DNA of 64,000 nucleotides from positions 12,393,952-12,457,951 of the forward strand of contig CM026423.1 of the NCBI GenBank assembly GCA_014871385.1, read 5' to 3'. Position numbers and translations under genes: made by a program. The notes beneath the pieces were generated by a model that saw only the letters and a program-made list of their open reading frames with translations, was not told the DNA's origin and made no database searches. This document shows, in pieces, positions 10,056 to 56,237 of this stretch. Position 1 is the stretch's first letter; each line of letters starts with the position of its first letter. This DNA is from Ceratodon purpureus (Eukaryota > Streptophyta > Bryopsida > Pseudoditrichales > Ditrichaceae).

Positions 10056-10109
10056 TAGTTTTTTGAAACATAGTACTTTTAAAGGCACCCTTGGGAATTT
10101 AGGGGTTAA

Positions 10110-22310: not shown

Positions 22311-23010
22311 GATGTCTGCACATAATCAACTCTCAACTCAGAACCTCAGTAAGTTTTGTATGGTTCTCATCTGGATTTTTCCTTCGTTGTTTGAGAAATA
22401 ATATCCTTGGGGCACACAAGACTGTAAGAATTACCAAGTTGCACCTTGACGACTGCAAGCCTCTGCTGTACCGAGGACAAGGAATTCATACTGTTCCTAC
22501 ATGTACTATGCAAAAATGGGAGAAAATCTTGCAAACAGATCTACAAAAGCACTGGGAATTCTGATGGAAGAGCCAAAATCGGAAAGGGGGAAGCTGCTCC
22601 AGAAAAGAAAACCCTGAGCAAAAAAGAAAACCCTGAGTGAAAAAACTCATTAGGCTTACTTGTTTTCACAATCAGCTTTGCGTCGACGTTTGGCAGCCTA
22701 AGATTGCGACAACACCCTACACATCCAATTCAATATCCCCGCCAGTGACAAAAGGGGTCATGACAAGAAAAACACCTGCACACTACAATACAAACAAACC
22801 CTAAGTGGCACCGGCAACAGCAAGAGTAGTCTGGAACTAAGTTGCGACTGTTCTAACAAAATAGCAACCTGAGCGTCTCCAGAACTGTAATGAATTTAGG
22901 CAGACATTCCAGGTGCTTCCTCGCACACTCGTTCTGTGTGGAAATGCCCAAGTAAGGTAGAGATCCCTTATTTAATCGATTACTTAAGCTACCTACACCA
23001 ATCTTGATCA

Positions 23011-23324
23011 ACATACATGATAGTCGGTTCTGCTCAGGTGCTGAGTTAGTACTGTTGTTATTGTTGGGTTTGATAAAACAACATCAGCTATCGAGAACAG
23101 AATGCTGAAGCGAACAAGAAAAGGAACCTGTACCTGAAGAGGTGCGCTGGCTAAATGGTAATAATTCTGTGGGACGGGCGCGGCATCATGGACGTGGGCA
23201 ACGACACAATGGGGATCTGCAACAGAAGGAAGGCAGGCCGAGTGGTGGACGCACTTGTGTGGCTGCACTGTGCATCTTATCACGCAAGCTTGGAGGAGCT
23301 CAGTTGCATCGACCGTGCTGACTA
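23011..23324. other. Insertion of about 310 bp relative to arm B
   Basis: Arm B runs straight from the GATCAAAAGT flank (46.90 kb) into the sequence equivalent to TACATCTCGACGAGC at 23,330, while arm A has this extra block. No clear inverted ends or target duplication were seen. A 131-codon minus-strand frame across it (23,008-23,403) is therefore unlikely to be a real gene. Confidence 0.4.
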
Positions 23325-26052: not shown

Positions 26053-26780
26053 AAACATCAATTGGAATGCAATGATGCTTGTTTGGAGAAACATGAAGGA
26101 TAGGAGAATTCATCCACTTGTTTGAATGGTAAGTTCTTCATTTTTTGTAAAAATTGAACATGTTTATATAAACTTAATTTTTATACAATTGCTTAGTTTA
26201 CCTTTAGGCTTCAATTTAGATCTCTGACATTGTATTTAAAAGGTTCTAAATATTGTGGTTGACAAATCAACGGTGTGCAGGTGAATCAAGCTCTTGAAGA
26301 TTGGTATTTTGATTAAGTAATAGTGATTTGACTCCAATATGTTCACATTCACATGTCATATATGACATGATGTTATTGATATTTGCATCATTCATTTTTT
26401 GTGGAAAAATTGTCAAAAAAATATATTTATTTTTAGAACCCGTCCAAAGTGAATTTGACATGTCCAAATACCGCTTCAGTTTCAGAGAATTCGTCCACTG
26501 GAAATGTTTTTTTTGTCAGAACATGTCCCGAGACATGTTAGGGACCTTGTGAAAAATCACCACTGGTCTAGGCCCTCGGGTCTCGAAGGCCTCACAAGTT
26601 GACGCGGGGCCAGAGATAGATCGCGGACATGGTAATAAATGTGACTGCTGATCATGGTTGTCATAATGGACCAACCGTCCGTTAGTCCGTCATGGTGACA
26701 AGACAGACCCCCGTGTCCGTCACATGAGGGCGTTGACCAGTTGACTCACGGTAAGGGTAAAACGAATTTACCTAGCGCTG

Positions 26781-27105
26781 AATTAGTGCGGGCGCGGGCG
26801 CGATTACGGGCGCGATTACGGGCGCGAGCGGGTGGGCGCGAGCAGGACGACGGGCGCGAGCGTCCGCGCGAACGCGATGTCACGGGCGCGAGCAGGAGTG
26901 CGGGAGAGCGAGGGCGCGTGCGTTGTTTCGGCCGCGCGCGTGCGCGTGCAAACGTGCGCGAGCGTCGCTGCGGGCGCGATCCAGTTGACGGTTGCGAGCA
27001 CACTTATCGGGCGCGGTCATGTGGGCGCGAGCCTGGATCGGGCGCGTGCATTCGGGCGAGTGCGCTGCATCGGGCGCCGGCGGTCGGGCGCGAGCGCTGC
27101 AGGTT
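26781..27105 (+). repeat. Array 1 of GGGCGCGAGC-type units (left subterminal)
   Basis: Irregularly spaced units GGGCGCGAGC, GGGCGCGTGC and GGGCGCGATC separated by 5-25 variable bases, about 130 bp inside the left end of the 13-kb hAT. Long Arg/Ala-rich open frames on both strands here are composition artefacts. Confidence 0.9.
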
Positions 27106-27288
27106 AGTAGGGAAAGAGCGACATCGGGCAAAATGACAAGAGAGGGCATGTATTTCAAGAGAGGGCAATTGGGAAGTGCAATGTTTATTGAAAAGTATTG
27201 CAAAATTGTGGCAGTAAACCACTTACAAAAAATGTCCCCTCTTATGGAGAACTGAGAATATCACATTGTTGTCACTATTTGCCTACTT

Positions 27289-28857
27289 CTAAATATGTTT
27301 GCGATAACAACACTCTGGAATCTGAAAATTGTAGGGAGGGGCTGTTAGAGTAGCGTGGACCAACTGCAAGGTGGAGCGGTTCTTGGGATCGGGATTTGTG
27401 AGCTCCTTCAACGCCACTGCAAATCTAGCCTTCCCCGCTACATCCTTGAAAAGGTCGAAGTCGTCCTCGTCCTTCCAAATCATATTTGCTACCACTCCAA
27501 CCAAGTACGCATCGGCAGCCTGCGTATATAGATGCCTCCTCCTTAAAGTTTCATATGAGGTCTCTGAATTTGGCTTACCATAAGTGTACCACAACTCCGG
27601 AGCGACAAAAGTACCACGTTCCTTGAAGGCAGCCGTACGCGCCTCAGCAGTTGGATAACCGTACCTTGAAGGAGTTGTCTCATACACCCGACTTGCAAGG
27701 CCCCAATCGCATACTCCAATGTAAACTTCGCTCACTTTATCCTCTGGGAAGTGAAGCAAGACGTTTCCCGGGGAGATGTCATTATGCTGCAAATACTCCT
27801 TATGGACCCGGTCCATAATACAGATCAGTGCCCAAGCTAGCTTGGCCCTATGGGTGCGGAAGGCCTTAACACGGTCACGTGTTTCCATGGGCATATCGGT
27901 CTGCTTGTGGATGTTACGGTTCTGAGTACCCTCACTGATATTTGAATTGAACTTGTTTAGAAAATTCTGCAGGCAATCCCCATTCCACCAAAACGTGTAG
28001 GCTTCCATCCTCCAGTCATTGACCGCAAAAAACTTAATAACGCCGGGATGGTCAATCCTGCAAACCATGGCTTCTATTGATGTCTCGTACCGCTTCTGGG
28101 TCTCGTCAGTAGCCTTGGACATCTTCCCCGCAAAGACACAAGTCTCAGGTATGGTTTGCATGCCAACAATACGTAATTTTTGGACTTTACCATAACCGCC
28201 TTCCTTTGTGCCTGACAGCGGAACCAACTTGACCCCTCTTGGAACTCCAACCACTGCTCTCCACAAGTACTTCTCCATTGCGCTTTTCAGTCCAGCTTCA
28301 AGCCATGGCCTCACCCTCGTTCTATTACTCGAGAATCTCGTGCACGAATCTTGGACATATTTGAGCTTCTCTATCTCCTCCTTCTTCCCCCGCGAGTAGC
28401 CCTCCTTCGGCTTCTTGTTGACACACTCAAAGACATGCACAATATTCGTAGTGTTTGTTGTTATTTGTTGCTCCATCCACTTAGGGAAATGAAAGTAATG
28501 AATACAATCATTATATCTCTGGGAACTGTCCAGCTTCTTCCACAAATACTCTTCCAACTGGGTCTTCAAGTTCTTAATTCCGGTCTCTCCCTTCTCAACG
28601 TATGTACGGGTAATCATCTCCCGTTTCCGACATCTGTACCACTCCAATGCTAGCTCTCTAACGAAATCCTGGTACCGAAGAGGTGGGTAGTCCGGGTCCC
28701 TCTCACTCGCCCGTTTCCGGTTCTTCTTTCCCGATGAGCTCGATGACGGGTTTGAGCCTGTATGAGATGGTGCTGTGGAGGTTGCCACCACCTCATCTAC
28801 AGGAGCATCAAGATCTACGTAGGCGGGACGTTTCCAGGATCCACAAGAGACCGACAT
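27289..28857 (-). CDS. Protein kinase-like gene carried by the 13-kb hAT
   Basis: Intact 522-residue frame from ATG 28,855-28,857. An upstream in-frame extension to 28,965 begins with GTG and is not used. Residues 1-180 are novel apart from a basic KKNRKR patch near 45. The kinase fold follows: Gly-rich loop SGTKEGGYGKV (about 215), Lys in FAGKMS (245), Glu in SIEAM (about 262), catalytic loop QHNDISPGNVLL (HND in place of HRD, Asp about 360), VCDWGLA (DWG in place of DFG, about 384) and FVAPELW (APE, about 419). Catalytic Lys and both Asp are kept, so activity is plausible. The NDISPGN loop recalls FunK1-like fungal kinases, a tentative comparison. It sits between arrays 1 and 2, with a TATA box at 29,033. 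Homologous C-terminal fragments occur in the hAT at 53-56 kb, so the kinase belongs to the transposon family and is not a host gene hit by chance. Confidence 0.85.
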   Translation of the reverse strand: MSVSCGSWKRPAYVDLDAPVDEVVATSTAPSHTGSNPSSSSSGKKNRKRASERDPDYPPLRYQDFVRELALEWYRCRKREMITRTYVEKGETGIKNLKTQLEEYLWKKLDSSQRYNDCIHYFHFPKWMEQQITTNTTNIVHVFECVNKKPKEGYSRGKKEEIEKLKYVQDSCTRFSSNRTRVRPWLEAGLKSAMEKYLWRAVVGVPRGVKLVPLSGTKEGGYGKVQKLRIVGMQTIPETCVFAGKMSKATDETQKRYETSIEAMVCRIDHPGVIKFFAVNDWRMEAYTFWWNGDCLQNFLNKFNSNISEGTQNRNIHKQTDMPMETRDRVKAFRTHRAKLAWALICIMDRVHKEYLQHNDISPGNVLLHFPEDKVSEVYIGVCDWGLASRVYETTPSRYGYPTAEARTAAFKERGTFVAPELWYTYGKPNSETSYETLRRRHLYTQAADAYLVGVVANMIWKDEDDFDLFKDVAGKARFAVALKELTNPDPKNRSTLQLVHATLTAPPYNFQIPECCYRKHI

Positions 28858-29032
28858 AGTTGGAATAATGAACTGGACACACAAAAAACAAAAAACAAAA
28901 GTTCCCCCCCACCCAATCTGGTTGCTCCCACTTCCTGCAGTTCCAAGCAGAGCACGTGGAGTCACGAGCTAGGACAAGGAGCCACCTGGAAGAGGAGACT
29001 TTGAAAAGTAGAAAATAAGGGTTAAGGGGCGC

Positions 29033-29042
29033 CTTTTATGGT
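29033..29042 (-). promoter_or_regulatory. TATA box of the kinase gene
   Basis: CCATAAAAGG on the minus strand about 180 bp upstream of the ATG and touching array 2. The leader contains CTTGGAACTG and GGGTGGGGGG motifs also found before the transposase ATG. Confidence 0.65.
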
Positions 29043-29335
29043 CCCCTCGGATGATCGCGCCCGTAAGCGCGTACACGCGCGCGTACATGGCCTCCACACG
29101 CGCCCATCCGCATGCGCCCGTCCGCACGCGCCCGTCCACCGCGTTCGCACGGGGGACTGCCCGCGCCCGTGCCCGCGTGCTCGCGCCCGTAACCCTGCGC
29201 GCGCCGGTTATCTGTACGCGCGAGCACGCTTCACGCGCCCGTGACCGTGCACGCGCCCGTCCTCGCGCACGCGCCCGACTCCGAGCACTCGCCCGCCTTC
29301 CTATACGTGCCCGTCCCCGTGCACGCGCCCGGATA
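29043..29335 (-). repeat. Array 2, upstream of the kinase TATA box
   Basis: Same unit family as array 1 but reading ACGGGCGCG on the minus strand, so inverted relative to the other arrays. It begins within a few bases of the kinase TATA box. Confidence 0.9.
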
Positions 29336-29669
29336 TGGAGCGTTACATACACTGTACAGGTTCGGTTACGGTATACTCGTATATTGAACAGAATACAAAA
29401 AAAAATCACTGCGAAATTACTCAATGGAAATATATTAACCGCATTTAGTGCTCAAAAAATAATACAGAGCACAACCATACAATTCCTTCGAGTGTGAGAT
29501 AATGAACTAGGTTGACTCTAAGTAACAGTATAAGTCTACGTAATAAGAAGGTGCTACCAAAACAAAAAAAAAACATTGAGAATAACATAGTATTTTTTTT
29601 GGGTTTTTAGCTGGTAGATTTTATGGTTAGATTTACTGCTACTTCATGCGCTAAAAAAGTGACCACAGT

Positions 29670-32600
29670 CTAGACTCTCCTTGCTTTGCGGGGCTTCTTC
29701 TTGCGTGAAGATTATCTTTTCCGAGCCACAGTGGGCCCCAATTCGTGCCGGATTATCACATCTTCGTCATCTGGCGCCTCATCGCAATCCGGGTCTTCCT
29801 CCTCTGAGTGCTCGTTGTCACCTTCATCCTCAGGAGCTCCGACCACTGGAGCTCGTACCTCTCCTTCCACCTCCGATGTAATATTTCGCACTTGCATGGA
29901 AACTTCACCCGTATCGCCATCTCTGGCACTTACTAGGCGCTTCATAGGCCTCTCCTTTCCGGAATTACCGATGGCTGTGATGCCATCCTCACTGATTATG
30001 CGTGTGCGAACAACCCCAGTTCCAGAAGATGGCCCCCCTTCAGTGTACCCTATATAGAATGGAAGGGGATCAGGTCCGGTTCTTTTGCTTGACTTTCGTG
30101 TTCCTCCACGGGGTTCTTATGATGGTGGTTTCCTAACAACCTTGTTTGTGGACTTCTTCGCACCACGTTGGGCCACATTCTGTACGGCGTCGTCTATAGC
30201 TGGCCCCACGGGGACTTGGTTGGCGGTGGAGGCACCACGCCGACTACCACCAACTCGATTGAGTGGAGGCCTCGCCGCTGCAGATGATCTAAGGAGTCGA
30301 GCTATTTTTGCGCCCATTGAACTTGTGGGCCTCCGAGCCAGGCCTCCATCCACGATTTTATATGGTTCGATACCCCCCATACCAGTGGGTTGCGATGGAG
30401 GCACAGTCCGTGCGGGGATTGCGTGAACGGTCCCTCTCTCATCAGCAGGAGGAATCTCTTGAAGCAAGCTTGAGTCTCCTTGTGCCGGAACGGTTCCCCA
30501 GTTGCCCTCCCCACTAACGAGGCCGGTCCAATGAGGTCCATCTGCAGCCCGTCCATGACTTCCATCACCCCCTTCGTCATTGTCCTCGTCATCATCGCCA
30601 GCATGGATATCGTTCCCAAGATGGTCCTCGCTGGACGAATCATCTGCAACCCCGTCATTTTTCTCGGGATTGATATGGACTGGAATAGCATCTTCTTGGT
30701 CACGTGTGTCTCTTCCTTCTGCATTAGCCGCTTCATCAAATACCGGGAGTGTGGGTAATTCGTCTCCATAGATGTTCATGTTCGGGTTTCCCTGGTTATA
30801 TTCTGGTTCATTGTTGAAGTCGTACGCATCACCGTTATCATCGTGGTTGTTGCGGTCACGAGGATTGTTGCGGTTAGCGTCACCGCGCCCGTTGCCATTA
30901 CCGTCGTTCTGCCCATTCGTGTTAACGTCGTCGTTATCATGTCCCCAGACATCATCATCCCCACCGTCTGCGTGGTCAACTGGTATGTAATGATCGTCGT
31001 CATCTCCGTCCTCTTCGCTTGGATCTCTCTCCGGATCTGACTCCTCTGACCATGCATTGTTCTCGTACCATCTGAGGGGGTTGGGCTTTGGGCGTTCGCG
31101 GAGGAGTCTGCTATTCGTATAAATGTACACCAAAGCCTCAGACTTCTCCAACCCCAGGCGGTTGCGTACCTTGTTGTGGACAAACGAATACATGCTCCAA
31201 TTCCGTTCACACGATGAGGCGGAGCAGACCTGAGATAAAATGCGCTTTGCAATGATTGCCAAGGGCCCCCCTCCAATCCTCTGCCACCATTGATGGGGTC
31301 CAGATTCAAACCTTTGATATCGATGGTCACTTCGGGGTTGTAAGGGCCACGTCCCTCGTCGAACTCGATCATCTCTTTCATAAGAACGGCAAATGGAATT
31401 CCCATTTGGCCACCCACCTGACGAAACACCCGATTGAGAGCGGCTTTCGCTTCTCCTATGGCTTGTAAGCCCTTATGCGTTCTGGTCCAAGGGTTCAAGA
31501 GCGCCGCGGCATAATGAAGATCGGTGTGCATCATGTCCCATCTACGGTCGAATCGCATCTCCATCCTTGTTGCCATGACCGGTGGGAAAAAGCAAGGGGA
31601 TCCTCGGAGACTGTACACGTGATCCTTTAGGTTGCTCATTGTAATCCATGCCTTGCCCATTGCCGGCTGGTTTCCATCGAAGGTTCTGAGAGCTACCAGG
31701 GCTGGTTTCACTAGGTGCGTGAAGTTGTCACACAGATGCCAGAACCCATCATCACGAATTGTTTGACGCACTACGCTTGCGCGTGCATGATTACGCACCC
31801 CTTCGGTTTGGTTGAATAAACCGTCGACATAATCGTACCACTCCGCTGCCATGACCACTTGCTCCAAAGCAAATTTAACCTCGATAAGGCGCTCTATCAT
31901 CAGATAGTTACAAGCAAATCTGGTTTCAGCGGGAACCACCAAGGACAACTTCGGTTCAAATTTGCGGAAAAGGGCCATGGGAACATGATGTCTCCAAATG
32001 TAATGACACACGTGTTTAGCCTTGGCGACCAAATCCTTCACAAAGACTTCCTTGCCCCAGTCCTCCATAAGAAGATCTAGAATATGGGCACAACAGCCCT
32101 GCTTGTACATGTGAGGATACTCCTCTAGGATATTATCCATGGCGCCAAGCATGTTGGCTGCATTGTCCGTGCAAATCTGGACAACATTCTGAGGGCCAAT
32201 TTCTCGAATATATTTCTTCATCTCCCCCGCAATATATCCCATTGACTTCTTCTCGCCAGTCGTATCAACAGACCCAAGAAATACATCGCCTGCCGAACAT
32301 ACTAGCATGACATTCATCAACGGTCGGCGATTCACATTATCCCAACCATCGGCGCAAATGGTAGCCCCGTACAACTCGGTCGAGGTTTTCGTACGTTCAT
32401 CAATCTTTGCCTTGATTAACTTCTTTTTTTCCTTGATGTGCGTTGTTCGCTTTGCGTCATAGGAAGGAGGACCGTAGTTTAATCCGGCAGCCGCGGTTGT
32501 GCTCACCGCCTTAATAAATGCTGGGTGCTTGGCCACGTTGAATGCGACGTTGGCTTCGTAAAAGAAGGATGACCACAACATGTCCAGCTCCTTTTGCTTG

Positions 32601-33115
32601 GCGATCTGGAGTGCTTCACTCATGTCCTGTTGCCGCAAGCTCCTAGTGGTATTCGAACCGGCCCTATTAGGTGCAGCACTGGAGACATTTCGGTCCTCTT
32701 CGGTATCATTATACGAGGGTTTGGATCCACCGTACAGAGTGCCGTGTGTGGAAGCACTGGAACACCCACGTTCAACTGACGCGGGGAACGTTGGCCTCAT
32801 ACCATCCATCTCCTCCTGTGTCAAAGGGCCGGAAATCTTCCCACCGCAAAACTGAAACTTCCTCTTCACTACGGTAGGTGCCTTTTGGCAAACCCTCGAG
32901 AGATTGGACTGGTCCCAACCATAATGCTGAAAGCACCTAGACTTCACGTACGAAAACTTGGTCCTGCAATACACACATTGGGCTACCTTATGTGACAGTG
33001 ACCCTTCCTGGAGCTTGACCGTAAACCATGGTGCCCACTCTCTCGTACCGAGTCTCGGAATGGCTCTAGCCGGAGCAACCACTTCATCCGCTTCAACCGC
33101 TTCAATCGGTTCCAT
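29670..33115 (-). pseudogene. hAT transposase (BED, DUF659, dimerisation domains) with one frameshift and two in-frame stops
   Basis: Likely the transposase of the 13-kb element. ATG at 33,113-33,115. A BED-like zinc finger, CVYCRTKF (Cys 47 and 50) then FQHYGW, lies near the N-terminus. The RNase H-like core follows, with ATICADGWDN, QICTDNAANM and GCCAHILDLL. Near 31,320 the frame shifts by one base: the upstream frame runs out after NPEVTID, and the next frame resumes with RFESGPHQWWQRIGGG and the dimerisation motif SQVCSASSCERNWS. A long acidic, Asn/Asp-rich tail follows. That frame meets TAA at 30,117-30,119, continues open, meets TAA again at 29,712-29,714, then encodes a basic SSRKKPRKARR tail to TAG 29,670-29,672. 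Both TAA codons could derive from CAA. As it stands the protein would lack dimerisation, so the copy is probably inactive unless the shift is a sequencing error or a spliced intron. Confidence 0.85.
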
Positions 33116-33356
33116 AGTGAATGATTAGGGAAGTATCGGGACTAATAGGACCAGTAGTACCAAAAGATTATTATCTGATATAACTTAGTGTGTCTGAAAA
33201 GTGCTTGACACATTGATTTATGGAGAGAAGAATTTTTACATTCCCCCCACCCAAAGCAAGTGTCTCCCCAAGCTAACAGTTTCAAGCAAGGAGCCCTCAA
33301 GGAGACCCAGGACATGAAGCACGCAAGGAGGTAAGGTGGATGTCAAATCAAGGGGG

Positions 33357-33369
33357 CAATTTATATACT
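33357..33369 (-). promoter_or_regulatory. TATA box of the hAT transposase gene
   Basis: AGTATATAAATTGCC on the minus strand, about 245 bp before the ATG, followed by a CCCCC stretch as in the other genes of the element. Array 3 starts about 25 bp upstream. Confidence 0.7.
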
Positions 33370-33394
33370 GCCGCCCTCGACCAGGCAAGTACTG

Positions 33395-33658
33395 TCCGGA
33401 CGGGCGCGACCGAACGGGCGCGCGCAAACCAGGAGATCGGGCGCGCTCCGACGCGAACGGGCGGGCGCATGTGGATGCGCGCGATTGTAGGCCGCGTGGC
33501 AGAATGCGCGCGCGGGGGAAGACGGGCGGGGGCGGGCGAGCTCGCGACCGCGCGTGTGCCTGCGCGCGCGTGGGCAGGTTCAATGGGTCGACTGCGGACG
33601 CGATCGCGCGGGCGCCTGCAGGCGCGGACGGACGGGCGTGATGGAACAGGCGCGCGCA
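33395..33658 (+). repeat. Array 3, upstream of the transposase TATA box
   Basis: Irregular GGGCGCG-type units with CpG-rich spacers. Open frames on both strands across it are Arg/Ala composition artefacts. Confidence 0.9.
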
Positions 33659-33820
33659 ATGAAGTTTAAAAGTCGGAAGTTCAAAAAAAAATAAAAATAA
33701 AAAAAAGTTAAGGGAGAGAATGGACTACACTGAAATACCATACATTAGTATGGAAGATTGGAGTACCCAAAAGAAAATAAAATAAAATAAAATAGACGAA
33801 TAGGCATTCGAATTTATAAA

Positions 33821-34051
33821 ATGAACACATCTACCTTAGTTGCAAGGTTCAGCGAAGGGAATTTGTCTCTGCCGTACCATTTTCAACGAACGTCTTCTCC
33901 ACCGATGGCCATATCTTCTGCTACATTTGAAACAATGGATATTGACGAATCATCAGCTGAACTCAAGCGCTTAGAGGATCTTCAGGTGACTCTGGGTCGA
34001 CCTGAAGATTTACTAGCTTTAGTATATTATAAAAATGAACGGACGAAATGA
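33821..34051 (+). other. Small open frame, possibly coding, unrecognised
   Basis: 76-codon plus-strand frame with ordinary protein composition (a MDIDESSAELKRLEDLQ stretch and a predicted helical end), opposite to all other genes of the element. It runs into the first 144-bp tandem repeat. No TATA box or domain recognised; it may be a leftover exon or chance. Confidence 0.25.
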
Positions 34052-34456
34052 GAAAAGGAATTAAATGAAAGCGTAGTGTTCAAAGAAGGGGAAAAAAAAA
34101 AAAAAAAACAAATTAAAGAGTGTGGGAATATTAAATAAAAACAAGGGGATAGGATGGGAGAGTGGTGGAATTATAAAAATGAACGGACGAAATGAGAGAA
34201 GGAATTAAATGAAAGCGTAGTGTTCAAAGAAGGGGAAAAAAAAATAAAAAACAAATTAAAGAGTGTAGGAATATTAAATAAAAACAAGGGGATAGGATGG
34301 GAGAGTGGTGGAATTATAAAAATGAACGGACGAAATGAGAGAAGGAATTAAATGAAAGCGTAGTGTTCAAAGAAGGGGAAAAAAAAAAAAAAAAACAAAT
34401 TAAAGAGTGTAGGAATATTAAATAAAAACAAGGGGATAGGATGGGAGAGTGGTGGA
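34027..34456 (+). repeat. 144-bp tandem repeat, three copies
   Basis: Units start at about 34,027, 34,171 and 34,314 with TTATAAAAATGAACGG (a fourth start is at 34,457) and differ by a few bases, mainly in the length of an internal A run. Each unit carries a TATA-like sequence readable on either strand. The block abuts array 4. Confidence 0.9.
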
Positions 34457-34480
34457 ATTATAAAATTTATTTGAGTGATG

Positions 34481-35070
34481 TTGTTGGAGTGCTCGGGCGC
34501 GTGCAAAACGGGCGCGAGCACTGATGGGCGCGAGCGCGTGCAAATGGAACGAGGGAGTTTGGGGGGAGAAATTAGTTCCATGATATGGTTGCAGTGCTCG
34601 CGCGCGAGTATTGACGGGCGCCAGCAGTCGGGCGCGTGCAAGATCGGGCGCGAGCGGAACGCGGGAGACATTGTGGAGGGAGAATGAGTTCCAGAATTTG
34701 GTATCCGTGCGCGCGCGGTTGGTTTGACGGGCGCGAGCAGGACGCGCGCGCGGGTACGGGCGCGTGCAAATGGAAAAGAGAGTTCGGGGGGCAAATTAGT
34801 TCCTTAACAAGGTTGCAGTGCTCGTGCGCGTGCAATGTCGGGCGCGAGCAGTCGGGCGCGTGCGAAATCGGGCGCGAGCGGAACGAGGGGGACACCGTCG
34901 GGTGTTTCACATTTCGGTATCCGTTCGCGCGCTGTTGGTGCGATGGGCGCGAGCAGTTCGCGCGCGCGCGTACGGGCGCAATCCTGGGTTTACTCTCGCT
35001 GGGGGCAGGTTTGTGCGCGCGCGGGTACGCACACTACGGGCGCGCGCAAACGCGCGCGTGCATGCAGGCG
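34481..35070 (+). repeat. Array 4, higher-order repeat of about 224 bp
   Basis: GGGCGCGAGC-type units set in a longer period: GTTGCAGTGCTCG recurs at 34,588 and 34,812. The periods include GGGGGGCAAATTAGTTCC, which resembles the GGGGGCAATTTATA promoter core of the element. The array therefore looks built from decayed promoter-plus-array modules. Confidence 0.8.
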
Positions 35071-35561
35071 GGTTCAGAGTTCAAATCCACGTAACATAAA
35101 ATTCAGTCCATATGTTAAATACACTTACAATAACTTAAGTTTTCTTACCGTGACTTAAATCCACTGACCATATTAAACATTTTGGTGTGCAACAGAGATA
35201 TTTATACACTTATCATACGATAGAAGGAGATGAGACAACGGGCGGAATGAATAACATGATTGGCAATCAAAAAAAGGGAGGCCAATGTATTATGTAGGGA
35301 GAATAAAAGCGTCTTGAGAACCACGACAATGATTTACAAAAGAAAATTATCATCCATTGTTTGAGTTTAACAAACATTAAACATGTGAATGTAATCCTAA
35401 ACCTATCCAATTCCCTATGCCTTCTACATGTATTTATATTCCGATATCTTTTTACAAAACGTGGTCTTCACTCATGGATCTCCACGACGTCACGTGCTCG
35501 GTGCAGAGGAACTTGATCCACCCTCATCGTGTCGTGCACGAGAGCTACCGGCTGCACTACT
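35071..35561. other. Non-coding stretch between array 4 and the RING-like gene
   Basis: AT-rich sequence with no supported gene. It should contain the 3' end of the minus-strand RING-like gene. Confidence 0.4.
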
Positions 35562-38052
35562 TTATGCCCCATCGTTAGCGATGAGTTTCCGCTTCGCAGA
35601 ACAGGTTCTCTTCGCTATGCCATCTCCTCCAAGCATTGCTTCCATGAAGTTGTTGTTGCGCATCCGACGGAGCACTGTTACGATCTCCGGAGTTTGTTGC
35701 GCACATAGGAAATCCACGGCTTGAGTCTTGAACAATATATCCCATTCAGATTCCGCGGTTTGTAACTCATTAGCGATCTCAAGATCCTGTTCCGTCATGT
35801 CGTGCAACTCCTTGATCTGATCCGCAACCAACTTCCCTTTGGAATTCCACTTAAATCCAAGAGGATGGGGGCCGTACTAGAATGTACGAGTTTGAATATC
35901 CCAGTGCCCATGTAGCACTTGGTAGAAGAAATTCCTCCTTCCCTCGAGTTCGTCCTCCGTCTCGCCCTTGATGAGTTCGTGGCAGATCCGTACAATCTCC
36001 GCAGGTTTCTGGTCCCACCTCCACTGATCGCTCATTTGTTTAACATAGGACTGGTGCATTCCCATAAGCCAATTCCAAATCAAGTCCTCACCCCACTTGT
36101 CCGGAAAGTCAGGAGTATTTTCCTTATTTTGCTCCTAATGCGGTGGCATCCAATTCGCTAGGCCGAACTGCTCATAAAAACGCTTGTGTAAGGGGGCCTT
36201 ACATACTGCACACCGCCGACGTATCAAGGCATGGGAAATCAAGCATTGTGGATGATACATGCAGTGACAGGATCCCAATGACCAGGCCCCCTCTGGCCCA
36301 AATGGATTGCAACAAACGGGACACTTGGTTCCATCCAACACATACTTCTGTGGATTGGGCCAGAGCAATCTTGGCTGCATATTACTATTCTTAGGGATCT
36401 TCTCATTGGATATGGCGGTCTTGTACTCCCACTCCAACTGCGTCCAATCTATTGCTTTACCAATCATCGGTATGTCTTCAGGGAACATTTCATCTAGATC
36501 TGCCCACGAGGTAAGTCCGAAATCTCTCCTGGAGTTAAGCTGGAGGTAGTCGCGGTCAATCCTCTTGAACTCACTGTACATCTGTCTATGACGGTCGACG
36601 TTCATGATGCATGCAATCTTTCATTGGTAGTACTGTCTGCTCATCTGGATCAGATACTTTCTGAGCATCCCGTTGGTAGCTTGCAATTCGGAGACAGTGG
36701 GTACCGATGGCTGTTGAAATCCCAAAGAGTCCTCTGTCTCTTGAGAATCCACGAACATGATTTGCCGCTGAGGGGGGTGCATCACTTGACTTGATGACGC
36801 GAATGGGATGATTGGCTTACGGGGAACTCGGACCGGGGTATCTTTCTAGAAGACCGTGCGTGGCCATTTCAATGATGGCATTCATGTCTTCCTCGTTCAT
36901 TCCAGCGCTACCAGGGATTGGAGCTTGGCTTGCCTCGGGTACGTAAGTCAGAGTCCTCGCAGATCTAAGTTGCAAAATCTTCTCATTCTGCTTCCGTATA
37001 ATCTCATTCATCCTATCAGCTTCTTCGTACAAGTTCTGGATAGTCTTCTCCATCTCAGAAATTATTGCATTTTTTCCTTCCAGCTCCTTCTGCAATGCAT
37101 CGCCTTGCGGGCCCTGGGCATCAGCGGCGGCTATTGTAGCCTCCAACTCATCTGCAAACCCAGTGTCATCATCTTCCATTTCATCACTCGGGCCCGCAAT
37201 CTGTGGATTCAATACATGAGGAGCTACATCAACATTGCTCGGGCCCGCAATTTGTGGAAGTAATATAGGAGGAGGAACATCAACATTGCTCGGGCCCGCG
37301 ACGATTGCTGGAGGAGCCTGATGAGGAATCCCCGGTCCAATAGGATTTGCAGGCGGTGCACGGTTCCTCGTCGACAAACAGGCAGCTAGCTCAGGATCCT
37401 TCTGTTTTAACCGTGTGATTCTAGCACTAGTCGCTGCTCTTGTTTGTGACTGAGCGGGACGGTCTACCGTACCATCAGAATCATTATCCTCCCCTGAGTC
37501 ACTCCAATCAACATGCAAATGATCCTCAGGATCATCCGCGTATTCCCAGTCCACATCTGGAAATTTTAAGACCCCTGTAGGTATCACCATCTCTCGTGGA
37601 CGCTGCTGGACGCTAGGAGTCAACCGTATGGTCCTCCAATCCACCTGCCTATGAAGCATTACCTCGGCATATACCATTCTACAAATAAAGAGCGGAACCT
37701 CGTTTCTATCCTTCATCGCTCGGCTGTATAGAACCTGCCACACCTCCAAATACCGCCTCCCGAACTGACGGTTCTTGCAAAATCTCATGTTCGCCTTGTT
37801 TGAAGTACGATTTTTATTATGGCGGTGCAACTGGAATAACTTCCCAATGTGGCACCATTCAATGAATTGTTCACACGTTGCTAGACTCCACGGTTGCGGT
37901 GCAGCTTCCCATCCTCTGAATGCCAGCTTTGCAGGATTCATTAAGACGTGAACCCTCTTATGTTGGCGGCTTCCATGCCAGACCCGTCCTGCATCCTTCT
38001 GCTTTTTCCTCTGCTCTGCCGCCGTGGGCTGATCTGGTCCTCGCCGTTCCAT
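35562..38052 (-). pseudogene. RING-like zinc-finger protein carried by the 13-kb hAT, broken
   Basis: ATG at 38,050-38,052. The first 400 codons are not recognised: a basic N-terminus, an acidic middle (DWSDSGEDNDSDG), two copies of an IAGPSNVDV motif in a Pro-rich stretch, and a coiled coil with ISEMEKTIQNLYEEADRM. The frame shifts by one base in the A run at 36,843-36,845 (LLE continues as DTPVRVPRKP in the next frame). It then runs to a zinc-finger block, CPVCCNPF, SCHCMYHPQC and CAVCKAPL, with RING-like Cys/His spacing. In-frame stops TGA 36,621-36,623, TAG 36,135-36,137 and TAG 35,877-35,879 interrupt otherwise continuous coding to 35,562. All three could be C-to-T changes (CGA, CAG, CAG). 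Introns could remove some of them; none was obvious. If intact, a ubiquitin-ligase role would be a reasonable guess. Confidence 0.7.
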
Positions 38053-38233
38053 AGCTGCTCGAGGTAGACCGTTCTTCGAAGTCTTCCGAAAGTGCAAAAT
38101 TAAAAGCCTACGACTACCCCAAAACCTCAATCACATTTACAAATTATAAATATTTACAAAATTCTCAAATGTACCACACAAACACCATAGAGTTCTGGAG
38201 AACAAAAACAAAGACACGTGTCAGTGTGCTGGG

Positions 38234-38334
38234 ACCTACCTGAGTACCACGCAATCAGCTACTCGGGGGCAGTTGAAGGCAAGGTGCTCAACGGGGGGGA
38301 GTGCAAACTGAGGGGGCAAATCGCCCTTTTATAG
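38234..38334 (-). promoter_or_regulatory. Promoter and 5' UTR splice donor of the RING-like gene
   Basis: GACTATAAAAGGG (TATA) near 38,326-38,334, then GATTTGCCCCC and GCCTTCAACTGCCCCCGAG leader motifs shared with the 39.3 kb gene, then a strong donor CAG-GTAGGT at 38,234-38,242. The first exon is probably non-coding. Confidence 0.6.
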
Positions 38335-38335
38335 T

Positions 38336-38712
38336 CACGGGCGCCAGGGAACGGGCGCGAACATCCTGCTACGGGCGCGAGCAGAAACTCCACGGGCGCG
38401 CGCCGGCACCGACGGCGGGGTTTCGGCCGTGTATACCTTCGCGCCCGCGCGAGTATCAACGGGCGCGAGCGGTTCAGTGGCGGGTATATGACGGGCGCGA
38501 TCGGGTTTTACTGCGCATGAGCGGGTAGCGACCCGGTCTTCGTCGGGCGCGCGCGGGCGTCATCCGGGTACCAAAGGGGCGCGCTCGCGGACGTCGTTGC
38601 GGGCGCGCGGATATTATTCGGGCGAGATCCGAATTGCACAGGTGCGACCGTCGGGCGCGAACGCTGGATGGACGGGCGCGACCACTGGTCCAGGACGGGC
38701 GCCACCACAAAC
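38336..38712 (+). repeat. Array 5, upstream of the RING-like gene TATA box
   Basis: Irregular array of GGGCGCGAGC, GGGCGCGAAC and GGGCGCGATC units starting a few bases from the TATA box. Confidence 0.9.
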
Positions 38713-38818
38713 TAGAACACTATTAAAAATCAGAGTAACCAAAGAGAACTTGCAAATTCAGAGTTAAAAAAAAATACTTTATTTATTTTGAAAATTTATC
38801 ACTTCATTGTAATGTCAA

Positions 38819-39256
38819 TTACAGTGCCATACACTCTAGGTACCGGTCCTCTAGGTCTTTCAAGTGCGTCTCAAAATGGTTCGTTTGAGCACTAGAGACT
38901 ATATTGGGGACACAAAGTATTGCCATCTCGTTCTTCAGTTCTTTGATGAGATTCCAAATCTCAGTGTCAAGTTCTTCGACAGTCGCTTGGGTTGCCAACT
39001 GCTCTTTAGTGGTTGGAGGCAGAGGGCGTCCATTCTCAGCGTAGGCCACCAATTTGTCACGGCGAGAGATCCAATCCTCAAAGAACTGAATCAGTTGACG
39101 GAGTCGCTCCAGCATTGTCCAAATAACTGTGTCCGTTCGCTGTGCAGTGCCCGGTGGGGTGGCACCATTTGTTACACTCATGTACGACTTGATTTGTTGG
39201 CAATTGCATGCGTTGGAATTCATGTTCGACGGTCTAGCGATTGTTGAGAAACCCAT
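38819..39256 (-). CDS. Small protein of the 13-kb hAT, function unknown
   Basis: Intact 145-codon frame with ATG at 39,254-39,256, about 90 bp downstream of a clear TATA box. The N-terminus has Asn/Cys-rich NACNCQQIK; the rest is predicted mostly helical (TMLERLRQLIQFFEDW, EELDTEIWNLIKELKNEM), which suggests coiled-coil or helical-bundle packing. No enzyme motif or known family is recognised. It is the first gene inside the right end and shares the TATA-leader module with its neighbours, so it is probably a genuine gene of the element, perhaps a partner of the transposase or kinase (inference). Confidence 0.6.
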   Translation of the reverse strand: MGFSTIARPSNMNSNACNCQQIKSYMSVTNGATPPGTAQRTDTVIWTMLERLRQLIQFFEDWISRRDKLVAYAENGRPLPPTTKEQLATQATVEELDTEIWNLIKELKNEMAILCVPNIVSSAQTNHFETHLKDLEDRYLECMAL

Positions 39257-39343
39257 CGTAACACTAAGCAATCAACTACCCTCGGGCTGTTGAAGGCAAA
39301 ATGCACAAAGTGGGGGGGGTGCGAATCAGTGGAGGAGGGTGGC

Positions 39344-39354
39344 AATTTATACTC
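39344..39354 (-). promoter_or_regulatory. TATA box of the small hAT gene
   Basis: AGTATAAATTGCC on the minus strand, then C-rich leader and GCCTTCAACAGCCCGAGGGT, nearly the same as the leader at 38.26-38.31 kb. Array 6 lies immediately upstream. Confidence 0.7.
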
Positions 39355-39356
39355 AC

Positions 39357-39575
39357 GGGGCCGACAGTGTGGGCGCGAGCAGGTTGGGCGCGCGCAGGCT
39401 GGTACGGGCGCGAGCACGTTCATCCTAAGCTACGGGCGCGCGCGACCCTGATCGGGCGAGGGTAATCGGGCGCGATCACTGTGCGCGCGCGAGACTGACG
39501 ACGGGCGCGATCAACCACATATGACAAGCGCAAACAGGCGCAAAGACGCGCGCGGACACGACGACGGGCGCCACC
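39357..39575 (+). repeat. Array 6 (right subterminal), upstream of the small gene TATA box
   Basis: GGGCGCGAGC-type units ending about 150 bp inside the right end. Between it and the end are repeated GTCCGTCCGATAA and GTCACGTGAC motifs. Confidence 0.9.
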
Positions 39576-39732
39576 CATGGTAAACAGTAGTAAACTGTGA
39601 GGACAATAATTTTGCTCGCGGTCGGAAGCCCGTCCGATAAGTGTCCGTCCGATAACCGTCCGTCACGTTCGTCACGTGACTACACGACAATTTTTTGGCC
39701 CGTCCGTCCATTATGACAACCCTGCTGCTAAT

Positions 39733-40289
39733 GACTTTACTGTAGTGATGCAATGTGCACTTTACCGTAGGATACCTTGTGGACGGCAGTACACGTTGAA
39801 GCTGTTGCAGTGCGATGACCTTCTTTTCCTAAACTTATCAGCCTTGGAGTTTTCATTAAAATGGACAAAAACAGTTGGTCCTAGTTCAAAATTTTCAGGA
39901 AACTAATGCTTTATTTTAGAAGGCAGAATAGCAAATGGATAGACTCATAGACAAGCTCTAGAATTACTCCTCTTCCAAATCAGTTGCATCATATTCTCGG
40001 GGAAAGAGAATTTTTCCTTCAATCCTCAATTATGCTTCCCAAAACAATTGAGCTAGTATTTCATGAGTTTGTGTAGCTTGCACAAGCATATTTTTAATTC
40101 TAGTTTCTTGTCTTTCTTCGTTTTTGAAATTCTAGCACTCAATTTCTCTTCTTCTTCCTCTACACCATCATTTTCATTTACCTTAGTTCCTTCAAGCTCT
40201 TCAAACAACACATTTCCAGCTTCAACGTCCTCCATTCTCAAATATCTCTTCATCTCCTTTGCAGCTTGTGTAGCCGCCATCAAAAAATT
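39733..40289. other. Spacer: end of arm A (to about 39,823), then non-coding
   Basis: 39,725-39,823 aligns inverted with 46,072-46,160. After GATGACCT the homology stops. The rest shows only the Ser-rich antisense of the Harbinger remnant. Confidence 0.5.
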
Positions 40290-41518
40290 AGAATTCCGTA
40301 AATCTCCTAACTGATTTCTACTTTTCCTTTGCATTATCATCTCTCCTTCTTTGGCCGAATTGGCATCGAACTTGTCTTGGTGTATACCGTAATGCACAAA
40401 TTATGAAGACAAATGCAGCTTGTAGTCTCATGCGGTACATGTCGAAAAGGCATCTCAATCCTCTTCAATAAAATCCTCGACTTCCCTTTCAATATTCCAA
40501 ACGCCCTCTCTACAGCCATTCTTGTTGATGATTGAATAAAGTTCCAATGCGCCTTTATTCCACGTAATCTTTTCTTTTCACCTTTGAAAGGAGGATAAAA
40601 CCGCGGTCTCATCGGATAAGCCGCATCAACAATTAATTTGTAAAACAATTATAACTCACCCCTCATCACTTTTTTCCCAATATCTGCATTTTGGAACAAA
40701 GTCCAATCATGGTAGCCATTCAAAATCGTAATCCTATAACTTGCGTTTGCTATTCGCTATGCCTTGAAGTAGAGTCAAATAAAAACCTTTCCTGCAGTAA
40801 AAGGAAGTAGGATCTATGGGGGGCAATGATAAGTATTTGGCTTCCGTCAAGTGCTGTCATAACATAAGGCAATCCCCTAGGCTCCTCAAATTTGGTTGCA
40901 ATTCTACTTAAAAAATATCTAGATAGTTCGCAATTACTAATGGTTTTAAATGCTTCTCAATTGCTACACAAAGTCCCCATAGATAAATGCGGTGCTTTCG
41001 TGAATGCCATATATTTCAGTACAACCACGTAATGAATTCCCACTACTAAGTCTATTCAATGAAAGAGCAACCTGATTTCTAAAAGGAATCACTACTCTGA
41101 AAATTTGAAATTTGCTACACAAATAATCAAAAGTTTCCGGAATTAACCTTGTATACTGCTTGAATAACCTAACCAAATATCTTCCAAATAATAATTTCTC
41201 CGCAAAAATATTGTTTTGGTCATACATCCAAATGCACCTTGTCCTCCTAAAAGCACTAACCTCCGCAACCATTATAACAAAAACCATCGCCATAGCACCA
41301 TAATGTTGGTTCAAAGCAAGTTTTTGCAATATTGCAATAACCGCCGTAATATGTCGCACGGCTATGAAGGATACAAGAGCCACTAAAACCTTATGCCTTT
41401 GTTCATCCATCTCGAAGAAATGCCAATGAAGAGAGAGAGAGAAGTGTTGAATTTTTTGACCTTTAACCCTTAAAATTCCTTGACTATGTTTCACCAAAAA
41501 ACGCTCCAAAACTGCCAT
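40290..41518 (-). pseudogene. PIF/Harbinger transposase remnant (DDE_Tnp_4)
   Basis: Broken pieces of a PIF/Harbinger nuclease. The N-terminal piece (41,518-40,964) contains TRCIWMYDQNN and an HTH-like region ending STAFIYGDFV. The first catalytic region, ALDGSQILIIAP, lies near 40,840. VDAAYPMRPRFYPPFKG and RMAVERAFGILKGK, holding the second Asp and the Glu, lie at 40,648-40,480. Frames change and stops intervene, so no full protein is possible. No matching terminal repeats or 3-bp target copy were found. Confidence 0.75.
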
Positions 41519-41529
41519 TTCCAATGTAA

Positions 41530-42396
41530 AAAGTATGAATGACTAAAAAATCATTATTTTCTAATTAAAATCAGAAGATCTTCAAGAAGATTATTCTATT
41601 GGACAGCTCAAAAATTTTCATCATAATCAACCATAGATAAAGGAAGATTAAATAGCGATTGAAATTTGAAAACAGACTTTTTTGACAAGATTTTTGACTA
41701 AGGTTGATACACTCTAACTTTTTTTTTTTAGGTTTTTTGCATTATGGATTTTGGGGGTTTTGGTGCATGTCAAAGAAGACTAAGTTAGCTAATTGTATTA
41801 AAAACAATACACTCAAAAGTCAAGTGTAGCATGTACAAAACAATATTTTTATTAAGTTGAATACACAAGAATGCTAAATCTTATTTCTTTCCTAGAAATT
41901 CCATTATGTTATAAAGTCCCAATCCAAACAATCAAAGTAAAGATTGATGTCCATCATTTAAGTGAAAAAAAAGAAAATATCTAAAATAATTTTTTTTTAA
42001 ACTTTTATGAAGAAAAGAGGAAGTTTTTTTAGTACACTACCCCAAACGGTGAGAAAACTTTGATATTTTGTGGAGTGAACATTTTGTACTGAAACAAGTT
42101 TTTATTTGGAAATCTCAAAGATGAAAACATTAAGTATTTATAGAAAAAATCTCAAAGGTAACAAATGTATTTAGCATGGCTACCCAAATTGCCGACCGAA
42201 TACAAAATTTCATTTCGGGTACCATAACTATTTTTTGAAATGTGTGATTGAAAAAAAAAATTAGTTCCCTCAAAGTCCTTGTTACGGCAAACATTCACAA
42301 AAAAATTTCAAAAAATATTGATTTAAATTGAAGTCATATGTACATGCCCAAACTCTAAAAAGACCCAATCTTGCCACTTTGTCCTTTAGGGGTTAA
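41530..42396. mobile_element. Solo right end of a piggyBac element
   Basis: TTAA at 42,393-42,396 preceded by the inverse of CCCCTAAAGGACAAAGTGGC. The last 90 bp align, inverted, with the left end of the 4-kb piggyBac element, including GTTTGGGCATGTAC and GACTTCAATTT. No partner end lies within reach, so this is a truncated copy. The inner limit is a guess. Confidence 0.7.
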
Positions 42397-44647: not shown

Positions 44648-45430
44648 TCATATTCCTCCAGCAAACATTATAATCAACTGAGCAACACTCACAAAGATGG
44701 TGATAGACATTTGGGCTGCAGGCTTTCCATAATCCTTCATCAACTTCCTGATGAAAGCAGCTATCTTTTCTAGGACACTGTTTGCTTTCTTCTTGATCTC
44801 CTCATCTTCCATCCTGAAGATGTCGGGCTCCACCCACGGACTTGATTGGAACATTTCTTTCATCTGCTTCTCTAGCCTCTCCAGCTCCTCCTGCCTCATT
44901 TCAGCATTCATTTCTTCCATATCAGTGTCTGTGTCAACTCCCGGAAAATCCACACAAAGAAAATGCTTGCACTCCGAAAAATCCTTCTCAATGTCCTCAC
45001 GGTTCACATCTAGCCAGTCCGCTTCATCGACCTTGGTGAAAAGGACAACAAAGTTCTTCTCGCCCCCTGAAAAAATTTGACGAAATGTTTCCCAAATAAT
45101 TGCATCGACCATGTCCAACCTGCCTTTCTCTTTCACGAAAACAATGTGGCTGTAACGGCCTTTCACTTCTTTCAGGAATTCGGTGACCATCTTCCTAGCA
45201 TCCTCATCTGGAACAGTGCCGCCCTTGGGTTCACCAAAACCCATGGTGTCTACGACTGTCCATCCTCTGCCACAGTATGTCTTGCACTTGCGGGTGGTGC
45301 CTCTCACTCCGCCTCCTATGGGCGCCAAAGGGGAATCCTCAAGCTTCCCACTCACAAGCATGTTTGCAAGTGTTGATTTCCCTGACCCCGTCTTGCCGAT
45401 TAGCACAACTCGCCCCATCTCCTCGGCCAT
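44648..45430 (-). CDS. AIG1-type GTPase, single domain with C-terminal membrane tail
   Basis: Intact 260-residue frame, ATG 45,428-45,430. G domain of the AIG1 family: P-loop GKTGSGKSTL (about 12-21), GVRGTTRKC (G2 region), VVDTMGFGEP (G3) and FTKVDEAD (G4, TKxD retained). A charged helix follows (EEMNAEMRQEELERLEKQMK). The last 20-odd residues (SITIFVSVAQLIIMF) are hydrophobic and would act as a tail anchor, as in GIMAP proteins and plant AIG1 members. It is head-to-head with GTPase copy B, 2.15 kb apart, so the locus is an AIG1 cluster. Function is likely GTP-dependent assembly on a membrane; the exact role is unknown. Confidence 0.85.
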   Translation of the reverse strand: MAEEMGRVVLIGKTGSGKSTLANMLVSGKLEDSPLAPIGGGVRGTTRKCKTYCGRGWTVVDTMGFGEPKGGTVPDEDARKMVTEFLKEVKGRYSHIVFVKEKGRLDMVDAIIWETFRQIFSGGEKNFVVLFTKVDEADWLDVNREDIEKDFSECKHFLCVDFPGVDTDTDMEEMNAEMRQEELERLEKQMKEMFQSSPWVEPDIFRMEDEEIKKKANSVLEKIAAFIRKLMKDYGKPAAQMSITIFVSVAQLIIMFAGGI

Positions 45431-46071
45431 CGCGATAGAGGAACTACAGTTAAGACAAAGTCAACTCGTGAACCCAGCTGGGCCCAGACGCAGAGGTATG
45501 TTGACCAGATTAGCAAACGGGGCTTTGGCTGTCCACTGAAATCGTGCAATTATTTCGTTCAAACTCGACGATCTCTCTCACCTAGAAAGATTGCAAGAAT
45601 GTTAAGTTACAGAAATCTAGTCGGTAGTAGACTCGGCGGTCTACAAACAAACGCAAGACTCGATCGTCACTCCAACTCCATAAACGTCAAAATTAGAGAG
45701 TATAAGGAGTAGGTCAGAAGAGACGTGGACACAAGCAGAAATATTCGTACGACCAGACTGGCAAACACAGAAAATCACTCTATTTGGCGAAACGAATTGA
45801 ACTGTTAAATACATTGCACGACGGCGCATCTTCAAACGCGGCTGAGTGTACATTGACCAACAAGAAAGAAACTCACACATACCTGACGAATCAATCCGTT
45901 CAGTTTTCGCATCCGAACAGTCTTAATCGGTCCTTGACCCGAAAGCCAACCGACACTTCGAAGCTAAAATGTCCACGTAAAATTGCGTTCTTTCCCCGTG
46001 AGTCAACAGACATCCTTCAAATTGTAAAATCCTCAGGCTTCAGCTTCGCTCTCGAAGGCAAGTGTAATTAG
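45431..46071. other. Spacer upstream of the small AIG1 gene
   Basis: Contains the 5' region of the minus-strand GTPase gene. No other gene seen. Confidence 0.4.
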
Positions 46072-54122: not shown

Positions 54123-54328
54123 GCAAGGTTATGGGTTTAAGGTGATTCTGGAGAACGGGGCATACAATTGATATTTTATTTTTTTCCGTTCCATTACAAA
54201 AATAGCAATAAAATTTTATTCTCCACAAGAGTACATAGCCGTCAAAAAAAGATTTATTACGATTTTGCAAACGTGTAAACAAAGCCATATAGGCAATCAA
54301 AATGTTACATATGCAATTCACTATGGTA

Positions 54329-56205: not shown

Positions 56206-56237
<32 letters not shown>

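Follow-up and report, generated by a model that had tools for sequence, protein, structure and literature searches.

What would a protein kinase and a RING-domain protein be doing inside a cut-and-paste transposon? The question is raised by a 64,000-nucleotide stretch of the moss Ceratodon purpureus (the window, on contig CM026423.1, designated C3 here), in which an element of the hAT superfamily occupies positions 26653-39724, about 13 kb, as an aged copy with two of its genes broken. Cut-and-paste transposons are usually seen as a transposase between two ends; the hAT lineage described here keeps a kinase, a RING protein and CpG-dense arrays, and it has multiplied. Our answer, which we hold with considerable confidence, is that the window element is an aged copy of a high-copy, autonomous-looking hAT transposon encoding four proteins, with the kinase and the RING protein as its long-term partners.

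The ends of the element, its target-site copies and the paralogous site are as follows.

26645-26652, no strand: left target-site copy CTGCTGAT, identical to the right copy at 7 of 8 positions
26653-26680, plus strand: left terminal inverted repeat, starting CATGGTTGTCATAATGGAC; the same terminus is found in other copies
39697-39724, minus strand: right terminal inverted repeat, ending ...GTCCATTATGACAACCCTG, from the inverted-repeat match
39725-39732, no strand: right target-site copy CTGCTAAT, identical to the left copy at 7 of 8 positions
46070-46247, minus strand: paralogous arm without the element (empty site), from flank alignment

The terminal repeats, 28 nt long, 82% complementary and 13,016 nt apart, match at 18 of the outer 19 positions, which is the 19-bp repeat with one mismatch that a preliminary description of the locus had reported. 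The insertion interrupts one arm of an inverted duplication (20646-23011 against 49258-46898, 87% by self-comparison), and in the other arm, where the element is missing, the left flank (26575-26651) aligns to 46247-46167 and the right flank (39727-39821) to 46163-46070, such that the flank edges 26651 and 39727 map to the adjoining positions 46167 and 46163. Because both flanks align in the empty arm, the boundaries are fixed independently of the terminal repeats, and the previously proposed limits of the element are borne out by repeat, target copy and empty site alike. hAT inverted repeats typically begin CA.GG, and short repeats of this type are present here, some right ends among the copies reading CAGAG or CATGG; the T at the third base of the left end is the rule of the family across copies and not a mutation.

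The empty arm also bears on the age of the insertion. Over their three longest alignable pieces the duplicate arms show Kimura two-parameter distances of 0.104, 0.150 and 0.182, and two pieces of about 50 bases give 0.113 and 0.228. Non-coding segments of the window element, compared with young copies, diverge by 2.7-9.9%, one 50-base segment reaching 16%. Since the arms are more diverged than the element is from young copies, the insertion is probably younger than the duplication. The junction in the empty arm (about 46163-46167) has CTGCTGAATCGCTGAT in place of the single CTGCTGAT expected, and it resembles what we take to be the form of a hAT excision footprint. As a footprint of this particular insertion it is ambiguous, and the dating disagrees; if real, it would record another event, and we do not use it as evidence.

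Four genes lie within these ends, all on the minus strand.

27289-28857, minus strand: protein kinase gene, 522 residues, open, with catalytic K, E, HND, N and DWG present (open reading frame, Pfam, alignment)
29712-33115, minus strand: hAT transposase gene (DUF659 and Dimer_Tnp_hAT), frameshifted here, 1148 residues in intact copies (open reading frames, Pfam)
35480-38052, minus strand: RING-domain gene, broken by a frameshift and stops, 850-867 residues when intact, 3' limit approximate (copy comparison)
38819-39256, minus strand: small gene, 145 residues, open, without known domain (open reading frame, Pfam)

The four genes on one strand had been recognised beforehand, and this part of the description stands; its "RING-like" protein is corrected to a fragment of a protein of about 850 residues. 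In Pfam, two frames of the window transposase match DUF659 (1e-33) and Dimer_Tnp_hAT (6e-6), the window kinase scores 27.9 bits against PF00069, under the cut-off of 31.7, and the window RING match is weak. A match of a kinase frame to a coronavirus helicase domain model, also below the cut-off, was dismissed as chance.

Whether these genes belong to the element or merely landed in it can be asked of its other copies. The genome was searched as an assembly of 362,488,568 bases in 151 contigs, and only the best candidates of each search were scored, so that the counts that follow are lower bounds. The left 448 bases of the element gave 419 candidates, the best 40 of which were all full length at 92-100%, and the right 425 bases gave 406, again with the best 40 scored. 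For the proteins, 60 of the best 78 of 1584 kinase candidates had no internal stop, as did 40 of the best 53 of 1675 for the RING protein and 37 of the best 40 of 1586 for the transposase. From the left-end list we took eleven further copies, ten of them high-ranking and one, C5:12742488, ranked lower. The kinase is present in all eleven and in the window, one lacking the kinase start and some having broken frames. Three copies (C6:26809602, C12:12674582 and C5:12742488, of 14.4, 14.6 and 16.4 kb) retain both termini with four open genes between them, the small gene being read in them from a start 11 residues further in, as a protein of 134 residues.

The insertions are independent of one another. 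Among the twelve copies with both ends read, ten have perfect and mutually different 8-bp target copies (CCTTGCTT at C12:12674582 and GTTGTCAT at C6:26809602, for example), the window has its 7 of 8 and one has none. Eight of these ten come from a set of nine copies in which a right end was paired with a left end or kinase: all eight that could be read at both ends have perfect, different target copies, and the ninth showed no left end. The check proposed at the outset, that the same four genes should recur between the same ends with different target copies, is thus passed by three complete copies and by ten of twelve target copies, and the kinase and RING genes, whose absence elsewhere would have spoken for chance arrivals, recur across copies; they are not one-off insertions.

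The same regularity appears when the genes rather than the ends are followed. A kinase stands at a left terminus in 48 of the 51 copies examined (the other 27 of the 78 scored kinases were not among them): 24 are spaced as expected from a scored left end, six of seven come from the target-copy test and 18 of 20 from the others, and these last 18 have 18 distinct flanking 8-mers. Among the best 40 transposase matches, 26 are in register with a kinase or left end, 23 with a RING gene and 16 with both; among the best 78 kinase matches, 18 are in register with a scored transposase and 22 with a scored RING gene. Of the best 53 RING matches, 31 lie no more than 25 kb from a left end or kinase, 30 of them at 9.8-12.9 kb. 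Taken together, the copies indicate a family whose elements are mostly 13-17 kb long with a CpG-dense array upstream of each gene.

A composite origin, in which the kinase and RING genes came from other mobile elements that had jumped into a hAT copy, might be suspected from the fact that long copies exist (one on C7, perfect in its target copy, is 31.6 kb long and probably contains a nested insertion) and that the C12 copy itself lies within another hAT. It is contradicted by the gene order, strand and spacing shared by independent copies with different target copies, and we regard it as scarcely credible. Two copies, C3:23516302 and C5:19065702, were at first considered deleted or truncated; each has a RING match whose place and orientation are as expected, at about 29 kb and about 38 kb from the left end, and they are probably interrupted, not deleted. 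Contigs C11 and C2 start at or near the left end of a copy; no telomere repeats were seen in their first 120 and 220 bases, and we take these starts to be assembly edges.

The distribution of copies is uneven: contig C6 (110.5 Mb, 30% of the assembly) holds 32 of the 40 scored right ends and 34 of the 78 scored kinases, a count biased by ranking on similarity to the window. The C. purpureus genome is given as 360 Mb with U and V sex chromosomes each of more than 100 Mb, about 30% of the genome, in a review (PMC8000587). C6 is possibly the V chromosome, and older copies may persist on it.

An indication that the two genes are more than recent company comes from a second hAT family. The copy at C12:12674582 sits inside another hAT transposase gene, 56% identical to database relative P0059 and 39% identical to P0035 over 491 residues, and adjoining this transposase is a gene of the RING family, about 29% identical to P0076 with all eight zinc ligands. 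The second family is abundant (the best 80 of 1376 candidates were scored, many with frames of 1032 residues), and its one bounded copy, on C1, carries a transposase 98% identical. The right end of the C1 copy was placed where its similarity to a copy on C4 stops, and for its left end a search for the 8-mer of the right flank with CA directly after it gave a single candidate, starting CAGGGTTG. So delimited, the copy measures 16,790 bp and has a perfect target copy, CGTGGGCA, on both sides; its two ends have their first 8 bases in common and only 12 of the first 20 match, and the right end has CAGGGTTGTCA in common with the family of the window element.

Within the C1 copy are a kinase relative, pieces of which match P0032 at 35-41%, a RING gene of 1056 residues (33% identical to P0076 over 191 residues, all eight ligands), a transposase of 994 residues and a gene of 500 residues (open reading frame 5936-4434, minus strand) that has the N-terminal domain of the RING proteins only, no RING motif being found in it, which suggests that this domain works on its own. 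A CpG-dense block precedes each of the four. No kinase was seen near the C4 copy, which is cut off on the left, or in the flanks examined of the C12 locus, which is unbounded, and the complete anatomy of the second family rests on the single C1 copy. Since a family whose transposase is only 39% identical has relatives of both genes, the kinase and the RING protein would be long-term partners of a hAT lineage; sequence comparison thus presents them as old components of a giant multi-gene lineage, with the second family shown at one bounded copy.

Protein database searches returned 34 relatives of the kinase, 36 of the transposase and 13 of the RING protein, the last two sets drawn from the best 8000 candidates. 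The transposase relative P0035 is 93% identical to the window protein over 77% of the query and the RING relative P0071 87% over the whole query; both are about 93-98% identical to open genes of other element copies and, by that measure, belong to the window element's own family. The nearest kinase relative in the database is at 67% identity, and the only matches with a named organism are weak transposase ones (Closterium). Of the kinase residues, K282 and E299 are kept in 35 of 35 sequences, and D397 and D421 in all 34 and 33 ungapped ones; the motifs read HND for HRD and DWG for DFG, and PF00069 is matched by all 16 relatives that were aligned out of the 34. The kept catalytic residues give the kinase the look of an active enzyme. 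In the RING protein the eight zinc ligands are kept in all ten aligned relatives of the 13 found (the fourth is H in eight and C in two) and zf-RING_2 is matched by eight of the ten, which makes an E3 ubiquitin ligase probable. Both hAT domains occur in all 18 aligned transposase relatives of the 36 found, as do D256, D317 and E637 (P0035 numbering), which we take to be the catalytic DDE triad; on domains and ends the window element is assigned to the hAT superfamily. In a profile search of the PDB the RING protein came closest to RNF24 (6e-8) and RNF38, and the kinase to ordinary Ser/Thr kinases. No host ancestor of the element kinase was found; a viral contig collection searched with kinase, RING and transposase queries held no confirmed relative, and a genome collection gave three weak kinase matches, all in bacterial bins and judged irrelevant.

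By substitution counts the four genes are under purifying selection, weakest for RING. Nonsynonymous and synonymous differences per site (pN/pS) were obtained from Nei-Gojobori counts with a one-sided Fisher test in chosen open copies, whose pairs share branches and are not independent. The kinase has pN/pS of 0.16-0.60 in 15 pairs of six copies, with p<0.05 in 11 (window against C12: 0.48, p 0.0009). An earlier nine-copy kinase table had given dN/dS below 1 (0.11-0.66) in 33 of 36 pairs; the later set leaves out C5:19065702, C3:23516302, C6:84574227 and C6:102541515 and adds C5:12742488. For the transposase the range is 0.31-0.52 in six pairs, five of them with p<0.05 (C12 against C6:26809602: 0.32, p 1e-5), and for the small gene it is 0.33-0.46 in the three pairs that include the window, all with p<0.02 (window against C12: 0.38, p 0.009). 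The RING pair C12 against C6:26809602 has 0.63, p 0.03.

A number of observations weigh against the picture drawn so far. Eight of the eleven further copies are interrupted, decayed or extend beyond the sequence examined; C5:12742488 has all four genes and no matching target copy; and 3 of the 51 kinases had no left end where it was sought. The kinase of the C1 copy lies in several frames, through frameshifts or introns, and P0071, the RING protein closest to that of the window element, has no Pfam match at 0.01. As for selection, only open copies were compared, which biases the outcome toward a signal; RING ratios are 0.53-0.77 in six pairs, with p<0.05 in four and none below 0.02, so that selection there is weak; three pairs among young copies give 0.48-1.28 for the small gene, none of them significant; and dN/dS rose above 1 (1.11, 1.39 and 1.67) in three of the 36 pairs of the earlier kinase table, each involving C5:19065702 and no more than 10 changes.

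The weak RING selection in particular is what one would expect of passengers, that is, of host genes that an otherwise ordinary hAT picked up and carries along to no advantage, and DNA transposons do frequently capture host genes. It is hard to reconcile with this that the same gene types occur in two hAT families whose transposases are 39% identical, that the kinase is under purifying selection and that its catalytic residues are kept across 35 aligned kinases. Because the genes recur in independent copies and again in the second family, we reject the reading of them as one-off insertions or passengers, and regard carriage without benefit as improbable.

The arrays and tandem repeats of the element are as follows.

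26678-27177, no strand: left subterminal CpG-dense array (GGGCGCG forward, 13 times), by CpG density
28978-29402, no strand: CpG-dense array upstream of the kinase gene (GGGCGCG reverse, 9 times), by CpG density
33303-33727, no strand: CpG-dense array upstream of the transposase gene, by CpG density
34026-34465, no strand: 143/144-bp minisatellite of 3.1 units, greatly expanded in C6:102541515, by tandem-repeat detection
34478-35152, no strand: CpG-dense array between the transposase and RING genes, by CpG density
38278-38752, no strand: CpG-dense array upstream of the RING gene, by CpG density
39303-39702, no strand: right subterminal CpG-dense array, upstream of the small gene, by CpG density

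The six arrays and the tandem repeats named in the preliminary description are all found. The six blocks are non-coding, with 13.5-15.6 CpG per 100 bp, and a seventh, weaker one (9.6) lies within the transposase coding region. Every one of the four genes is preceded by a block, the small gene's doubling as the right subterminal block; between the transposase and RING genes there is one block in the window and two in the three complete copies. GGGCGCG lies mostly on one strand in all blocks except the pre-kinase block, where it is inverted, and, plain alternating CG apart, CGGGCGCGAGC is the 11-mer found most often in the C12 blocks. In C6:102541515 the minisatellite has grown past 5 kb, its overlapping matches covering 8024-13461 there.

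Across the six arrays, transitions are no commoner at CpG positions than elsewhere: 35 of 722 CpG positions changed against 54 of 1109 others for the window against C12, and 28 of 752 against 66 of 1184 with C6:26809602 as reference. In the genes, the excess of CpG change is about 2-4-fold for the kinase, RING and small genes and only 1.3-1.4-fold for the transposase. The pattern fits arrays that escape methylation-driven decay and is weak evidence for it; the polarity of change is assumed, and the little excess in the transposase gene tells against the inference.

How would such an element work? The preliminary description had suggested control of transposition, replication timing or host silencing as possible roles of the added genes. 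The transposase would cut and paste it by way of its CA(T/G)GGTTG termini with 8-bp target copies, the kinase and RING protein would most likely keep it expressed or competent by targeting either the transposase or host proteins of silencing or checkpoints, and the arrays may serve as shared regulatory platforms. One possibility, which we entertain tentatively as the foremost single role for the accessory proteins, is an anti-silencing device comparable to that of VANDAL elements, in which accessory proteins would bind the CpG arrays and strip or prevent silencing, the RING protein ubiquitinating and the kinase phosphorylating a silencing factor. In VANDAL elements, VANC proteins bind to non-coding DNA densely arrayed with motifs of one orientation and thereby cause methylation to be lost locally (PMC5735166). 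The arrays of the window element are likewise non-coding and dense, with mostly one orientation within a block, and they stand before every gene and at either end of the element; the VANC21 motifs, too, are arrayed in non-coding DNA (PMC5735166). Array CpG sites decay no faster than other sites, and the RING protein, 850 to 867 residues long depending on the copy, contains a tandem-peptide region, VANC proteins sharing both traits; on the other side, neither the RING protein nor the small protein has an identified DNA-binding domain, and the CpG decay test is a weak one.

A second possibility is that the kinase and RING protein regulate the amount, assembly or timing of the transposase, for instance by restricting excision to part of the cell cycle, the arrays then being transposase binding sites. 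The subterminal position of two arrays and the length of the transposase (1148 residues), with its acidic C-terminal part, would suit such a scheme; arrays that are also internal, upstream of each gene, suit it less, and the one-gene hAT elements Ac, Tol2 and Hermes transpose without kinase- or RING-type factors. Control of the transposase or of the cell cycle therefore seems to us the less likely of the two roles, and some other role is about as doubtful a prospect.

The bolder reading is that of a previously unrecognised giant hAT lineage, with a core of transposase, kinase and RING ligase and an array before each gene, whose kinase-ligase pair would disarm a host silencing or checkpoint factor; such a lineage would, as a cut-and-paste transposon, counter host defence much as large DNA viruses do. 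We judge this proposal, taken as a whole, to have a little less than an even chance. A hAT lineage that has kept such genes and multiplied makes the manipulation of host signalling or silencing by a DNA transposon directly testable, and in a moss. There is also a warning for annotation: sizeable families of kinase and RING genes in genomes of this kind can belong to transposons.

Some neighbouring features of the window may be recorded here. The left copy of the inverted duplication (20646-23011) overlaps a GTPase gene of the AIG1/MMR_HSR1 type, a second such gene lying at 44648-45460. Beside the right end of the element, at about 40300-41540, are minus-strand coding remnants resembling what we take to be another transposase, with no clear match in Pfam. 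At 53580-54748 and 55185-56346 are G-rich and C-rich tandem arrays that form an inverted pair at 86%.

Compared with known systems, the element has the general features of the hAT superfamily (Ac, Tam3, Hermes, Tol2), namely a DDE transposase with DUF659 and a C-terminal dimerisation domain, short inverted repeats and 8-bp target copies, and it differs in its size of 13-17 kb against a few kb, in its four genes and in the CpG-dense array before each. A hAT with both kinase and RING genes is not described in the literature searched, the Ceratodon genome paper and Repbase being outside its reach. The claim that these genes would be a new kind of cargo proved too strong, since transposons with enzyme cargo are already known, hAT7 elements with TET/JBP and IS3EU elements with TET/JBP and alpha-kinase among them (PMC12730594). 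In the section of that paper drawn on here, TET+ hAT7 transposons of Puccinia carry a TET/JBP gene beside the transposase, which is proposed to counter silencing; they resemble our family as hAT elements with an added enzyme gene, but they are fungal, have 7-bp target copies, and are presented with no mention of a PF00069-type kinase or a RING gene (PMC12730594). The window family has 8-bp target copies, and no TET/JBP match was found among the ten window frames scanned with Pfam. The same section describes IS3EU as cut-and-paste transposons with a kinase gene in conserved order, but of another superfamily, with 6-bp target copies and an alpha-kinase, whereas the window family's kinase is of the PF00069 type (PMC12730594). 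In Pfam no alpha-kinase match appeared for the window or relative proteins, the kinase hits being PF00069 and PF07714. Lanisha elements were reportedly named by Maumus, McDaniel and Carey in 2020. Their name comes from the authors of the Ceratodon genome, and they are possibly from the same host (cited in PMC12730594); the same paper gives them a transposase of the EnSpm-like kind and places them in a group whose target copies are 2-5 bp (PMC12730594).

Among plant elements, the comparison that bears most directly on function is with VANDAL elements, in which we know of no kinase or RING gene; the transposase of the window element is hAT and not of the Mutator-like (MULE) type. VANDAL21/Hiun (VANA, VANB, VANC) is, in the part of the work cited, likewise a plant multi-gene cut-and-paste transposon with same-oriented non-coding motif arrays; it is a MULE, and anti-silencing has been demonstrated for it, whereas for the window family we infer it (PMC5735166). 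By analogy with these precedents, VANC on the one hand and the TET/JBP transposons on the other, a role of the kinase and RING protein in defence against silencing is suggested.

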